A DNA stretch of 64,000 bases from Dicyema japonicum (Eukaryota; Dicyemida; Rhombozoa; Dicyemidae): contig RDEW01000034.1 in the NCBI GenBank assembly GCA_011109175.1, positions 517,556 through 581,555 on the forward strand, in the 5' to 3' direction. This document shows positions 2,065 through 60,822 of this stretch, piece after piece. Both the position numbers and the translations under genes were made by a program. Below the pieces are notes generated by a model. It worked only from the letters and a program-made list of their open reading frames with translations, was not told the origin of the DNA and did not search any database. The stretch's first letter is position 1. Each line of letters starts with the position of its first letter.

Positions 2065-5000
2065 TTAATCATCTTGTGTGTAAAATGAAGCAATAATGGC
2101 CTTTTCTTGGTCATTCATTTCCCTTTTAATAGTCCTACGAACTGGGAATGAAAAGTAAGGTAACCAGTGTGCAAAGCCTAGTTTTTGATTTATGAGTTTT
2201 CTGATTGTCGATTGAATGTTCAAATGTGTTAAGTGGAATGTCCTATAGTAAATAGAATGTAATACAGAGAGGATATTAACTCCTCTAGTTTTGCGTCTTT
2301 GTGATTTCTGAATGGTCTTTGCTTGTAATTGATGAATAGTGTTGATTGTATCCCTGTGTTGTAGAGCAAAATCTGAGAAGAGTTGGCAAATGTCCTCAAT
2401 TTTGTAATTTTTGATGTCCTCTAGAGAGAATGCAAAGTAAATGAGCATGTGATTAAATTTGTGAATAATCCTGTGATAAATAGTATAAAGTTTGGGTAAA
2501 TCAAATTGGCAAAGGTGAAAGAATTGTGTAATACTAAAAAAGTAATAAAGAATACTTTTTCCTTAATGGATATATTCCCTGATTAATATGATGAATAAAT
2601 GTTGTACATTGATTATATTGAGTGGAGAGATTATTAATTTTATTAGCAAGTCCACTCCAGTCAACCTTAGCGGAATGTATAATAGAGTAAATATCATCAT
2701 ATAAATTAGATTTATTATTATTGAGTAGACAAACGTGGTGAAGGAGAGTATTCCTTTGTACAGTGTCCTTAACAATGGTAGTCTGTAGTAAATATTTAAT
2801 ATGAAATCCATGACTCTACAATAATAGAGATAATATACATATTTATTATTAAGAATAATACCCAAACGTAACAGAGTAATCAATATACTTTTTAGTACTT
2901 TTGAGTTTATTAGTTGGCTTATTCCATTATTTAAATCATACAACTGCTCAGATATTTCCTATTCTTATATTATTTATACACCTTCTTTATTTGATTATAT
3001 TCACAATAATACAACCACACTTCCAATCTCTCCTCCAAACAAGGAATTGATAACAACATTCTTATAAAGTTCTCCGCTGATGGTAATTTTATATTAGGGT
3101 CCTCCTCAAACGCATTCATAATTGCTATCCTCTCCTCACTGCTTGGAATAATACTCTTTATTTTCTACTATCAGTCTTATTATATACCTCTATTCCCTCC
3201 TTATTCAACACACTACTGTCCATACTCAATATTCCACTTCTTATTGACTCAAAACTTGGCATTTTAGCCACTGTTATGTTTATTAACTGAGATCTCTTTC
3301 CATCCAATATTGATCTATCAACATTCTTTACCTCTTTATGCATTTCTGTCTTTTTTGACACAAATAATTCCTTATATTTCTTTTCATCTATTTCTACTTT
3401 CTCATTCTCTAATTCACTCCATATTGTCCTCCTCTTCTCTTTTCCTATTAATATTTCCTTCTTTGCTTCTGTCCAATACAACTTTATTGTTTTTATTTCA
3501 CTCATTCCTCCTTTACCCATTGCTGGAGGTGGGGGCGGTACTCCTCCTTTACCCATTGCTGGAGGTGGGGGCAGTACTCCTCCTTTACCCAATGGTGGAG
3601 GTGGTGGTGGTACTCCTGATTTACCCAATGGTGGAGGTGGGGGCGGTACTCCTCCTTTACCCAATGGTGGAGGTGGTGGTGGTACTCCTCCTTTACCCAA
3701 TGGTGGAGGTGGTGGTGGTACTCCTCCTTTACCCAATGGTGGAGGTGGTGGTGGTACTCCTGATTTACCCAATGGTGGAGGTGGTGGTGGAATTGTGGAA
3801 CTTTCTTTATCCATAATAGATGAAGATAGTCCAGTTTTATCAATTGTCTGTGTAGTAATATTAGTGGGTATAAGAGGATCAATATCCCACTCTTCAGTTA
3901 AATCAGTAAAGTCAATTTCATATCCATAATTAACAATGACTAATTTATTTTTCTGTTCTTCTTCCTTGGATAACTTTGCCTTCATTATTTCTTTCATTTC
4001 TGATATTGACTCTGATACACCACCATCATCAGCATCATAAAATTGTTCTTCCGTTACTTCATCTAATACTGGATTAACAGATGAAAAATAATGTTGTAGT
4101 TCATCACGAGATAGTGTTGATCTTTTATTCCTTTCACGACGATCTACATTATTATTATTTAATACCTTTCTTTGAAACATTTATATTTTCACACTCTCCA
4201 AAACTAGATGTGCTATCTGATTGTTTCATTTCACTAATAGGTGTTTTTAATTGACTCTTCATTTATAGTAGATGCTTTTACTTCATTTTCTGTGCTATTA
4301 GTTTTCGTTGGTAATTCATTTGATGTACATTAGTGTCTGGTGTATTAGTTTTTTTTGATTCGTTTTCTGTGCTATTAGTTTTCGTTGGTAACTCAGTTGA
4401 TGTGAGAATAGTGTTTGGTGTATTAGTTTTCTTTGATTCGTTTTCTGTGGTATTAGTTTTCGTTGGTAACTCATTTGAAGTGAGACTAGTGTTTTGTTGT
4501 ATTAGTTTTCGTGACATTAGTGTTTGGTGTGGATTGTGACGTAAGTGATGTGATTGATGTATATTCCTAAGTGAATAATAAATAAGTACATTAAATGAAT
4601 AAATTAGAGAAATAATGTCAGATTGATTAAGTTTGTGTTTAATTTGTTGTATAATATCATAAATATTAAGTTTGTTGTCATTAATAGTATCAATTTGTGG
4701 ATATCCCTGATAAATGCGATTGATTATTTGAAGTGATAAGAGACAAAGTTCATAATCAAAGTATGAGTTATGAATAGCAGTAATAATTTTCTGTAGAAAT
4801 AGAAAATCTAAGTAAAAAGGTAAAAAACCCAATCGTTCACAGTCAGCGATAATAGCACTAACAAGTATTTCAATATGTTGATCAGAATATGTAGCAAAGA
4901 TCATTAAAGCCTTTAAAGCAAGTTTAGCAGAGGGGAGATACTAATAATAAGTAGTTATTAGAACATGTGAGTCTGTTATGGAGTAAATCCACCTGAGGAC

Positions 5001-5657
5001 GTCAATATTGTTAGCAATGCCATGAATTCCATCGACATATAATATAAGTTGATTAATAGCTAAAGTAATAAGAGGGAATACATCGTAGAACTGAAGTTTG
5101 TAGACTGTTGTCAGCATATTGTCCCAGTTTGGTCAAACATTCCAGTCCATTAGCCTCCACAAAATAATAAATAAAATCCTTATCATACTTTAATAGTTTA
5201 GTATAAACATACTTTGAACATATTTTTTAGTTGAGCAATCAATCGTCGTCTGTCCTTGTTGTCTGATTGTTCAAGAATATCTATGATAACCATAAATTAC
5301 TAATACAACGAAGAACTCTTAACTGTATTTTGAGTACAATAACAAGAATGGGATTGTGTGTAATAAATGAGGAAAAATCATCTTGTTGTTCACTTAGTGA
5401 TATTTCTAAATCAATAATAGGACTAAATTCTCTAGTTCTCGTCATAAATTGTAGAGAAACGTCATCAATCTATTATAAAGAAAGAGGAATACATCCATAG
5501 GGCAACTAGCAGTTTGGACAATGTTGGATAATTGACAGGAGAGAGGGATTGTCAATGAGAGAGAATATGAGAGAGGACGTAGTGGACGCAATTCAACAGT
5601 ACATTGGAATGGGTCCTCAGTAACAACTACCTGCAAACCAACTGTAATATAATCCAT
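2065..5657 (-). CDS. FHOD: FHOD-type formin, at least 11 micro-introns
   Basis: Actin-assembly factor of the FHOD formin group. The N-terminus (from the ATG at 5657) resembles the FHOD GTPase-binding/FH3 region, with armadillo-like blocks such as [20 protein letters not shown]. Next comes a Ser/Thr linker with a three-fold 23-residue repeat. FH1 is a tandem array of PPPPPPLGK(G/S)GV units at about 3500-3790. FH2 runs from [13 protein letters not shown] through [25 protein letters not shown] and LPSAENF to FALQHRD. Introns placed by frame and homology: 5470-5492, 5281-5300, 5188-5212, 5060-5081, 4941-4964, 4257-4281, 4144-4165, 3165-3187, 2959-2981, 2816-2838 and 2534-2555, each 20-25 nt, GT-AG. 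In the third linker repeat (about 4325) one base is missing relative to the other two units, so the frame there is unresolved. The start lies 70 bp downstream of the VPS41 stop on the same strand. Confidence 0.93.
3520..3795 (-). repeat. FH1 proline tandem repeat (coding)
   Basis: Eight consecutive units of about 33 bp encode PPPPP(P/A)(L/M)GK(G/S)G(V/M). The last two units change LGK to MGK and lose one proline. The array is the profilin-binding FH1 segment of the formin. It also creates long antisense and shifted open frames, which I regard as shadows. Confidence 0.9.
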
Positions 5658-5727
5658 AATAAATAACGACCTATTTTCTTTATTATAATATTAATTATGT
5701 TACGAATTAACCGCATGTTTAAGCATG

Positions 5728-59520: not shown

Positions 59521-59912
59521 TCAGTTGAGGAAGCCTGCTCCGTGGATTGCGAACGAGTTCCCTTGGAGTATGGCTATTCTAATTTTTTGTCTTAGCCATA
59601 ACCATTCTCGTAGATCCCTTTTCTTTCTGGCAAGCAATCCTCCGAGTTCTCGCAAGAACTCAGCCGTCATTGGACCAGCGGCTCCCGATGATTCGGTCGC
59701 AACAGGAGTAAATCGGTAGCGATCCCCGAGGCAAGAATATTTCTTGATTTTTAGGTTCTCCGCAGTCGAAGCAGCTGCTCCAGGTGTCTGAACCGATTTA
59801 AAAATATTCGTGCTTGAGAACGTGTCTACACAAGTTGCGTCCCAGACCAAAGATCTTCCAGACGTGAAAGGGAAAAGAACTTGTCTACACAAGTTGCATC
59901 CTGTTACAGTTG
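59521..59912 (-). mobile_element. RLE-family fragment
   Basis: Minus strand, open frame to a stop: VLFPFTSGRSLVWDATCVDT, RYRFTPVATESSGAAGPMTA, LGGLLARKKRDLREWLWLRQ and AILQGNSFAIHGAG. It begins just before the WDAT motif; RPDG is absent. A short internal duplication CTTGTCTACACAAGTTGC flanks the truncation at about 59,880. Confidence 0.8.
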
Positions 59913-60030
59913 TATTATTATTTTTATTGTTTAAAATAATAATACAATTGTAAGAAAACAAATATACTTATATAGTAATTATTCCTAAATACAATATTTA
60001 TTGGAAAATGTGGTCGATCAAAAATTTCTA

Positions 60031-60822
60031 ATGATTTTAATTAGTGTTATTTGATTGAGAATTTGAGAGGTTTTACAATAAAAGTGGTTTTTATAATTAA
60101 TTTGAGAGGCTTTAATTCTATAATACAATTAATAGCTCAGACAACTCAAGAGTTAATGATTATTCCGTATTATAAATATAGTTTTACGAATATATTACAA
60201 ATGATAAATGACTATATTGGTGATGAATATAGAATATTATGGAATAATTCTAATGATACAAACATTAATACTTTTTACGAACAAATGACAATTCTGGTGG
60301 AGACTTTTAAAGATGAGAATCCTCCAGAGTAAGACTTGGTTATATTTGTAAGATCGGTGGATATGTCCCCTGAAATAAGCGAGATAATCAAACAAGATTT
60401 TGACAAGAGTTCATTCCAAGGCCCTAACAATTGGGATCCATTCAAGGGATTTGATTTCTTTCAGTCTATGAATCAACCAGTAAACTTAAAAATGAGAGAA
60501 TTTGAGTTGGAATCAAAAAATAATGAGGAATTTGAATCTTTACAACATCCCCCCATAACAATGGAACAAATTCACGACGGAAAATGCTTTCTCCTGTCAT
60601 AACTTTTATAATAAAGAAAGAAGAATGCCTAAAATCCTGCCAAAGTGTGAGCACACAATGTGTCACAGTTGTATTATTGAACAGCTCATAAAGACTGGAT
60701 GGACTATTACTTGCACATTTTGTGGTAAAATAACAGAACTTCCTCTTATTAATCGACTTAGTGTTCTCCGTTTTGACAATGTTGCATTAGAAACATCACT
60801 TTTGAAACAAAATTTAAATTAA
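60031..60822 (+). CDS. RING-like finger protein, spliced
   Basis: Exons joined by introns at 60329-60352 (24 nt) and 60596-60620 (25 nt) give ...FKDENPPE+SVDMSPEISEIIKQDFDK and HPPITMEQIHDGKCF+LLRMPKILPKCEHTMCH. The finger reads C, then CEHTMCHSC and CTFC, as in RING domains of E3 ubiquitin ligases. The second Cys of the first pair is not seen, so zinc binding may be atypical. The first exons (60,031-60,150) contain one or two more short introns that I could not fix. A ubiquitin ligase role is inferred from the finger only. Confidence 0.65.

Follow-up and report, generated by a model that had tools for sequence, protein, structure and literature searches.

Introns of six genes in the window

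The window analyzed here is a 64,000-nt stretch of contig RDEW01000034.1 (C120:517556-581555 in our contig numbering) from a genome of 64.67 Mb in 191 contigs, and its genes are interrupted by GT-AG introns so short that we refer to them as micro-introns. According to the original prediction, made from the letters of the window, conserved reading frames in ten or more unrelated genes are restored only when GT-AG segments of 20 to 27 nt are removed. The segments were borne out by homology and decoy tests, and 146 of 149 introns in a final set that extends beyond the window measured 20 to 26 nt. The number of genes was not: six window genes have database homology and carry 51 counted introns of 20 to 25 nt (FHOD, 10; VPS41, 14; TBC, 9; VPS52, 8; TRIT1, 8; MMAA, 2), and two further predicted genes have no or weak Pfam support. 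The genes and introns are as follows; every intron belongs to the final count unless stated otherwise.

2534..5492, minus strand, FHOD-type formin gene, span of its 10 counted introns (Pfam FH2 1.9e-49, FH3_FHOD1-3, Formin_GBD_N)
2534..2555, minus, FHOD intron, 22 nt
2816..2838, minus, FHOD intron, 23 nt
2959..2981, minus, FHOD intron, 23 nt
3165..3187, minus, FHOD intron, 23 nt
4144..4165, minus, FHOD intron, 22 nt
4941..4964, minus, FHOD intron, 24 nt
5060..5081, minus, FHOD intron, 22 nt
5188..5212, minus, FHOD intron, 25 nt
5281..5300, minus, FHOD intron, 20 nt
5470..5492, minus, FHOD intron, 23 nt
5947..8342, minus strand, VPS41 gene, from predicted start (8342) to last counted intron (Pfam TPR_Vps41 3.5e-31, Beta-prop_Vps41 2.9e-24)
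5947..5968, minus, VPS41 intron, 22 nt
6103..6124, minus, VPS41 intron, 22 nt
6254..6276, minus, VPS41 intron, 23 nt
6464..6486, minus, VPS41 intron, 23 nt
6814..6837, minus, VPS41 intron, 24 nt
6968..6989, minus, VPS41 intron, 22 nt (later models only, replacing a mispredicted 37-nt call)
7154..7175, minus, VPS41 intron, 22 nt
7289..7310, minus, VPS41 intron, 22 nt
7491..7512, minus, VPS41 intron, 22 nt
7709..7731, minus, VPS41 intron, 23 nt
7855..7874, minus, VPS41 intron, 20 nt
8097..8118, minus, VPS41 intron, 22 nt
8197..8219, minus, VPS41 intron, 23 nt
8304..8327, minus, VPS41 intron, 24 nt
20346..21991, plus strand, RabGAP-TBC gene (Pfam RabGAP-TBC 1.6e-42)
20549..20572, plus, TBC intron, 24 nt
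20875..20898, plus, TBC intron, 24 nt
21042..21065, plus, TBC intron, 24 nt
21198..21221, plus, TBC intron, 24 nt
21322..21344, plus, TBC intron, 23 nt
21487..21508, plus, TBC intron, 22 nt
21682..21702, plus, TBC intron, 21 nt
21838..21860, plus, TBC intron, 23 nt
21942..21964, plus, TBC intron, 23 nt
38250..39532, minus strand, VPS52 gene (Pfam Vps52_CC 3.6e-31)
38402..38422, minus, VPS52 intron, 21 nt
38484..38507, minus, VPS52 intron, 24 nt
38641..38664, minus, VPS52 intron, 24 nt
38766..38790, minus, VPS52 intron, 25 nt
39196..39220, minus, VPS52 intron, 25 nt
39289..39312, minus, VPS52 intron, 24 nt
39389..39412, minus, VPS52 intron, 24 nt
39466..39489, minus, VPS52 intron, 24 nt
44315..45760, plus strand, TRIT1 (tRNA dimethylallyltransferase) gene (Pfam IPPT 1.6e-59; 438 homologs; alignment to seven homologs)
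44447..44467, plus, TRIT1 intron, 21 nt, in frame and stop-free (encodes 7 residues absent from 7/7 aligned homologs)
44710..44732, plus, TRIT1 intron, 23 nt
44892..44913, plus, TRIT1 intron, 22 nt
45042..45064, plus, TRIT1 intron, 23 nt
45177..45197, plus, TRIT1 intron, 21 nt
45290..45311, plus, TRIT1 intron, 22 nt
45390..45411, plus, TRIT1 intron, 22 nt
45516..45538, plus, TRIT1 intron, 23 nt
48305..48326, minus, MMAA intron, 22 nt (placed by hand; joined protein aligns to human MMAA across the junction)
48476..48497, minus, MMAA intron, 22 nt (placed by hand; joined protein aligns to human MMAA across the junction)
48756..48776, minus, MMAA probable intron, 21 nt, in frame and stop-free, GT-AG bounded (7 residues absent from human MMAA; found after counting and outside the 149)

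The FHOD introns were identical in two gene models, and the Pfam match of the TBC protein rose from 128 bits in an earlier, shorter model to 146 bits in a later, longer one. A protein search with VPS41 returned no match at E ≤ 0.001 and so provided no evidence on lineage. The TRIT1 protein was 32 to 41% identical to its homologs, mostly over at least 90% of its length, among the 120 of 438 matches listed, and the joined MMAA protein matched human MMAA with an E value of 1.6e-70. Because the first TRIT1 intron contains no stop codon, the gene finder misread it as coding sequence. Such in-frame, stop-free introns of 21 nt (the one in TRIT1 and probably that in MMAA) are visible through homologs alone, and others may be hidden in further genes; gene finders thus misread genes of this kind even when they model micro-introns.

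Gene models and the intron set

The sample consisted of the window, ten-kb stretches from 19 fixed sites on large contigs, one further stretch at PRP8 and the loci found by family searches; GC content was 0.368 in the window and 0.370 in the 20 stretches. Genes were predicted with a custom gene-finding model that tracked codons and stops exactly and used explicit intron lengths, seeded with ten PRP8 introns recognized by eye and then retrained. A version without seed introns was rejected after it converged on long false introns, as was a neutral model allowing lengths up to 70 nt, which absorbed exons and broke down in PRP8 past a frame break. The final set comprised 149 GT-AG introns. They come from 14 named genes plus 11 loci of kinases, 25 in all and all supported by homology, namely Pfam profiles and, for PRP8, SF1, U2AF65 and MMAA, matches in PDB. 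Apart from the 146 micro-introns (mean, 23.0 nt; SD, 1.4; median, 23), the set contained introns of 40 nt (SF1), 41 nt (a bromodomain gene) and 68 nt (U2AF2); since the gene model was not designed for long introns, it tells little about their number. Intron interiors were 95% A+T in PRP8 and 66 to 73% A+T in the kinase, U2AF2 and SF1 genes, and lengths were alike, which indicates that length and not composition is what is kept.

Several calls were dropped before counting. These were one PRP8 call at the frame break; five VPS41 or FHOD calls, which lay at the junction of the genes, in low-complexity sequence, at the C terminus or where the predictions of two models differed; calls of 55 nt (TBC), 78 nt (VPS52) and 48 nt (3' end of the NAD kinase gene, NADK); calls in an HSP70 copy (L033), in retroelements (L019 and L025) and in the L004 sequence preceding the Rab domain; and all calls in the two window genes with weak or no homology. 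Kinase stretches L054 to L058 were also left out. The calls at the VPS41/FHOD junction were bridges between two genes rather than introns, and calls of 37 nt (VPS41) and 38 nt (TBC) were prediction errors at places where later models put introns of 22 to 23 nt.

Homology and chance tests

The micro-introns are genuine and far exceed what chance would supply. PRP8, located by its Pfam PROCN domain, encodes a protein of 2297 residues across 36 counted introns of 20 to 26 nt. In comparison with human PRP8, the protein aligned in two pieces, over residues 13 to 914 of 914 and 2 to 1381 of 1383 (the residue alignments were inspected in part). Removal of the introns restored the conserved frame, so that PRP8, TRIT1, U2AF65, SF1 and MMAA all aligned to homologs across their junctions, and the frames of PRP8 and TRIT1 require TAA, TAG and TGA as stops. 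At 15 exon junctions in kinase genes and U2AF2, profile coordinates alone predicted introns of 22 to 26 nt. At 12 of these junctions, a GT-AG segment in frame matched the predicted length exactly, and at all 15 one came within 3 nt of it, making GT-AG the top scorer among 256 dinucleotide pairs (runner-up, 8 exact and 11 within 3 nt; mean, 1.4 exact). One kinase junction (L049), with a length estimate of 13 and a match containing three stops, was excluded from this test. When all length priors were made flat in eight gene stretches, GT-AG scored 575, compared with a mean of 323 and a maximum of 468 for 41 decoy pairs, so that GT-AG was also the best of 42 pairs here; 69 of 93 GT-AG introns were 20 to 26 nt long, versus 12.7% for the decoys. 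The length peak was not built into this test, although its margin is somewhat flattering, because GT-AG models had served to train the coding model and the stretches were preselected for being predicted genes.

The contrary explanation, that the segments stem from indels in the assembly or from decayed genes, with chance GT-AG pairs bridging the frame, does describe individual cases. A 20-nt "intron" in PRP8 deletes seven residues that human PRP8 possesses and is a frame break, intron calls in the HSP70 copy fall by eye on coding-like sequence, and MMAA contains a frame break recognized by eye. For the set at large, this explanation is barely credible, given the sharp peak at 22 to 24 nt under flat priors that 41 decoys fail to produce, the 36 such segments in PRP8, and junctions at which homology fixes the length before GT-AG is looked for. 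Assembly artefacts, which the original prediction had named as its possible undoing, would account for a few calls, such as that at the PRP8 frame break, and not for the rest; its view that these are spliceosomal introns near the lower length limit known for animals is supported.

The frame breaks that gave rise to false intron calls lie in MMAA (window ~48300-49200, minus strand), in PRP8 on contig C87 and in the HSP70 copy, which suggests that some are assembly indels or decayed copies. Separately, 10 of 11 PRP8 introns with a length divisible by three contained stops compared with 7.5 expected, the downstream frame being taken from a manually shifted count; selection for stops in such introns was rejected as too weak an effect, and two stop-free introns of this class exist elsewhere.

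Splice-site signals

The 146 micro-introns began with GTA (82), GTT (54) or other triplets (10) and ended with TAG (104), AAG (27), CAG (13) or GAG (2). The original prediction expected mostly GTA and TAG or AAG; GTA held a bare majority. Divergence from interior composition amounted to 0.20 bits at +3, 0.22 at -7, 0.10 at -4 and 0.22 at -3, with mostly A at +3, mostly T at -4 and -3, and a preference for A/G at exon positions -2/-1. The 5' boundary was very weak, in that past GT only +3 departed clearly from the interior (+4 to +8, ≤0.05 bits). The sum over +3 to +6 was 1.49 bits against a uniform background, compared with 0.5 in PMC2483917, whose scoring was not reproduced. Complementarity to U1 averaged 4.9 of 9 matches versus 3.8 at 302 exonic GT dinucleotides in PRP8. 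There was no polypyrimidine tract, the longest pyrimidine run averaging 3.7 nt. Internal exons of PRP8 had a median length of 174 nt (n = 35).

Candidate branch site

An A at position -7 was present in 83 of 146 introns compared with 48.8 expected by permutation (P ≤ 0.0005). The same held for 14 of 28 introns placed by homology instead of the trained model (7.0 expected; P = 0.003, rising to 0.04 once the choice among 13 positions is allowed for) and, in GC-richer genes, for 28 of 56 introns whose interiors are 27% A. The motif TNAY with its A at -7 occurred 41 times versus 13.5 expected (z = 8.0) and was weak elsewhere (z = 2.5 at -8, 2.2 at -9, 2.3 at -12 and 2.2 at -13), and divergence from the interior was ≤0.03 bits from -16 to -8, against the 0.22 bits at -7. 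Introns lacking A at -7 had A at -8 in 49% of cases and at -9 in 46%, versus 20% and 25% in the remaining introns. From these patterns, we infer that branching takes place at the A at -7 (or at -8 or -9). Counted from the 5' end, the A at -7 is base 16 to 18 in 69 of 83 introns, which would place the branch about 15 to 17 nt from the 5' splice site and leave some 6 nt of 3' tail with no polypyrimidine tract. The claim that a branch site and tract have next to no space in such introns is accordingly upheld for the tract and not supported for the branch site, given the yUnAy-like enrichment of A 7 to 9 nt from the end; the fixed branch-point distance that had been proposed as a check, looked for in the sequence, was roughly fixed.

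Several results count against a positioned branch site. An A at -7 was absent from 63 of 146 introns, and 21 of 146 had no TNAY anywhere from -5 to -14, so the signal is a statistical tendency and not obligatory. In a free motif search, 75 model-found introns yielded an AT-repeat motif without a single position, and all 103 introns together yielded ATTAT with peaks at -4 and -7. The signal at -7 was first noticed in introns picked by a positionally weighted model, though a later model carried no weights there. Moreover, an A at position 16 from the 5' end was nearly as enriched (80 of 146), so that the anchor could be either intron end. Among introns of at least 23 nt (n = 91), 47 had A at -7, 42 had A at 16, 75 had either and 14 had both, and these counts did not separate a fixed 5' distance (16) from a fixed 3' distance (-7). 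A best-match scan with TACTAAC was rejected after giving no clear position.

The A at -7 might instead belong to an extended 3' splice-site signal, for example a motif recognized by U2AF35 or at step 2, with branching left unpositioned. That -4 and -3 are also informative would fit this explanation, as would the lack of a single position among model-found introns and a 2008 survey that reports no branch signature for Dicyema (PMC2483917). We nevertheless regard it as unlikely, for the A lies in a T-N-A-Y context and shifts to -8 or -9 where -7 has no A, as a floating branch site would. Furthermore, the free motif search of 28 hand-anchored introns recovered GTNAT 7 to 9 nt from the end (log-likelihood, 16.5 versus ≤13.2 in 15 shuffles), and in GC-richer introns examined by eye, an A at -7 sits in TGAC or TTAC in U2AF2 (TGTGAC-CCTAG and GTTAC-TTTAG) and an A at -10 in TACTAAT in SF1.

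Spliceosome components

Of 11 genomic matches to U1, the two loci read both start with ACUUACCUGG, and U1 keeps the canonical recognition sequence (ACUUACCUG); ACAGAG is kept in the one U6 locus read, and the GUAGUA branch-pairing stretch is kept in U2. With canonical recognition sequences in U1, U6 and U2, these small nuclear RNAs (snRNAs) have not followed the introns. U2 differed in one respect, an extra A (GATCAAAGTGTAGTA) between the U6-pairing (GAUC) and branch-pairing (GUAGUA) stretches. The extra A was present in all six loci read (L009 to L014, ~1519-1543 on the U2 strand) of 25 genomic matches, 22 of which scored above the Rfam cut-off, and the Rfam alignments, shown for four U2 copies, mark it as inserted with respect to the consensus of the family. 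The two-A form did not occur in the sequence examined. The U2 stretch that holds the insertion is not known to vary in well-studied eukaryotes.

Genes for PRP8, SF1, U2AF65, SMU1 and RED were all present, SMU1 as segments on contig C123 with 44 to 65% identity and RED as one exon match of 64 bits. The exon-by-exon matches of U2AF65 fell below the whole-protein cut-off of the family, and the joined protein matched human U2AF65. In SF1 (L045, ~1270-1310), Phe replaces a Trp of human SF1 within the motif through which SF1 binds U2AF65 (ULM).

Some neighboring observations concern the same machinery. A single weak U6atac match (C34:237761-237858; 37 bits; cut-off, 33) hints that a minor spliceosome survives. 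At C126:1612060-1613301, RRM and then UHM exons lie in order and represent PUF60 or SPF45. An approximate SPF45 query matched the UHM on C126 (49% identical), which follows 0.8 kb after an RRM-type match, and a G-patch on another contig; the UHM match may be PUF60. An NAD kinase gene stands beside PRP8 (C87) and again beside U2AF2 (C114), its five introns having the same sequences in both places; this may be a duplicate, a haplotype or an assembly artefact.

Proposed mechanism

The best explanation of these results, to which we assign a probability of roughly 0.8, is that these are ordinary U2-type GT-AG introns that, in a dicyemid-like animal, have shrunk to a length near 23 nt, with the branch inferred at -7 and with recognition beginning across exons. 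Because U1, U2 and U2AF cannot all fit on 23 nt, intron ends would be recognized first across exons, and by spacing. Binding of U2AF to a tract would be dispensable, a polypyrimidine tract being used little if at all, and activation assisted by SMU1 and RED would cope with a distance between 5' splice site and branch far below the ~50 nt of human introns. The human B complex is calculated to require ~52 nt, the sum of a U6 helix of 17 nt, a ~21-nt gap and a U2 helix of 14 nt (PMC6692369), and 44 to 47 nt is given as the limit in cells (PMC11291888). If the candidate A is the branch, it leaves about one third of the human room, and at ~15 to 17 nt versus ~52 nt, the B complex here would have to be built differently.

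Three observations fit this explanation less comfortably. In most animals, G at +5 is a strong U1 contact, and with G at +5 in 21 of 146 introns, that contact is not wholly lost. The best U1 match scored 69 bits, just below the Rfam gathering score of 69.5, and the Trp-to-Phe change in SF1 is compatible with a weakened U2AF route and does not show one.

A more specific proposal is that the spliceosome has been re-tuned to ~15 to 17 nt, the U2 insertion lengthening the linker from the branch helix to the U2/U6 core and thereby, with a weakened contact between SF1 and U2AF65, permitting activation of the B complex on introns too short for its human counterpart to span; we hold this to be rather improbable. 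Should ~15 to 17 nt indeed be used in most of the introns examined, the human floor of ~45 to 50 nt would not be intrinsic to animal spliceosomes, the snRNAs and PRP8 here being largely ordinary. Concrete targets for tests are the position proposed for the branch, the insertion in U2 and the presence of SMU1 and RED.

Comparison with known systems

Tiny dicyemid introns have already been published (2007 to 2019); what is new, as far as the literature search extends, is the tendency towards a branch site and the extra nucleotide in U2. Ogino reportedly described such introns in 2010. Published values are 26.2 ± 1.9 nt (n = 16; PMC2222250), a median of 27 nt with two thirds below 30 nt in Dicyema (PMC6543705), and a genome-wide mean of 38.2 nt in Dicyema japonicum, whose genome of 67.5 Mb has a GC content of 36.7% (PMC6736024). 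The present introns are likewise short and uniform and share the weak 5' boundary (PMC2483917), whereas their median of 23 nt, with 146 of 149 below 27 nt, contrasts with the mean of 38.2 nt in D. japonicum (PMC6736024), a comparison in which our set excludes long introns by design. For Dicyema, PMC2483917 gives the weakest known 5' boundary and no branch signature, from 41 introns as the table row reads; in contrast, A at -7 and TNAY (z = 8.0) were evident here. This difference may reflect the larger sample and not a different lineage. Besides PMC2483917, no work on dicyemid branch sites or snRNAs was found, and no published dicyemid counterpart of the 1-nt U2 insertion, in a literature search that covered openly accessible papers. 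In orthonectids, by comparison, the median intron measures 57 bp (PMC6543705).

A parallel outside animals is the ciliate Stentor coeruleus, which likewise combines AT-rich GT-AG micro-introns, a positioned branch A, a short tail, canonical snRNAs and a conserved PRP8; its branch A is position 10 of 15, with a 5-nt tail (PMC9505925). Stentor introns are nearly invariant at 15 to 16 nt and occur in 18% of genes (PMC9505925), whereas those described here range from 20 to 26 nt, are dense (36 in PRP8) and carry the A as a statistical feature (57%). With the human short introns that depend on SMU1/RED or SPF45, they share SMU1 and RED orthologs and a truncated or absent tract (PMC8363638). In human extracts, SMU1 and RED relieve this kind of constraint on the distance from 5' splice site to branch. 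Short-intron ciliates have SMU1 and RBM17 (PMC12862383); the human minimum of ~44 to 50 nt (PMC6692369, PMC11291888) compares with ~15 to 17 nt here. Trichomonas, Giardia and Yarrowia resemble the present case in lacking a polypyrimidine tract and positioning the branch near AG (PMC2483917) but are intron-poor and have a strong branch consensus, unlike the weak motif and many introns found here.

A dicyemid origin, which the original prediction had put forward, fits the genome size and GC content, both similar to those of D. japonicum (PMC6736024), the intron lengths published for dicyemids and the animal affinity of two proteins, though these fall short of proof. That the genome instead belongs to another short-intron eukaryote, such as a ciliate-like protist or an orthonectid, is very improbable, given these points, the three stop codons that the PRP8 and TRIT1 frames need and the different intron lengths of orthonectids and Stentor. 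Among the 120 matches listed for each, the best-identity matches of PRP8 and TRIT1 were mostly animals, with none naming a dicyemid. For PRP8, the animal matches were 70 to 76% identical (most of them 73 to 75%), an algal record stood third by E value (64%), and fungi and plants were lower; the algal record and the lack of a named dicyemid speak for a different lineage.

Other features of the window

Two further micro-intron genes were predicted, at 24139-24837 (minus strand, 9 introns) and 60031-60822 (plus strand, 4 introns); their Pfam support is absent or weak (RING), and a later model scores the latter low. Within the FHOD gene, 3161-4180 (minus strand) contains a run of near-identical 12-residue repeats. 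By eye, LINE-like reverse-transcriptase fragments and repeated open reading frames crowd the host genes, at approximately 8887-10392, 16775-17720, 25007-29550, 41680-43128 and 51061-55451.

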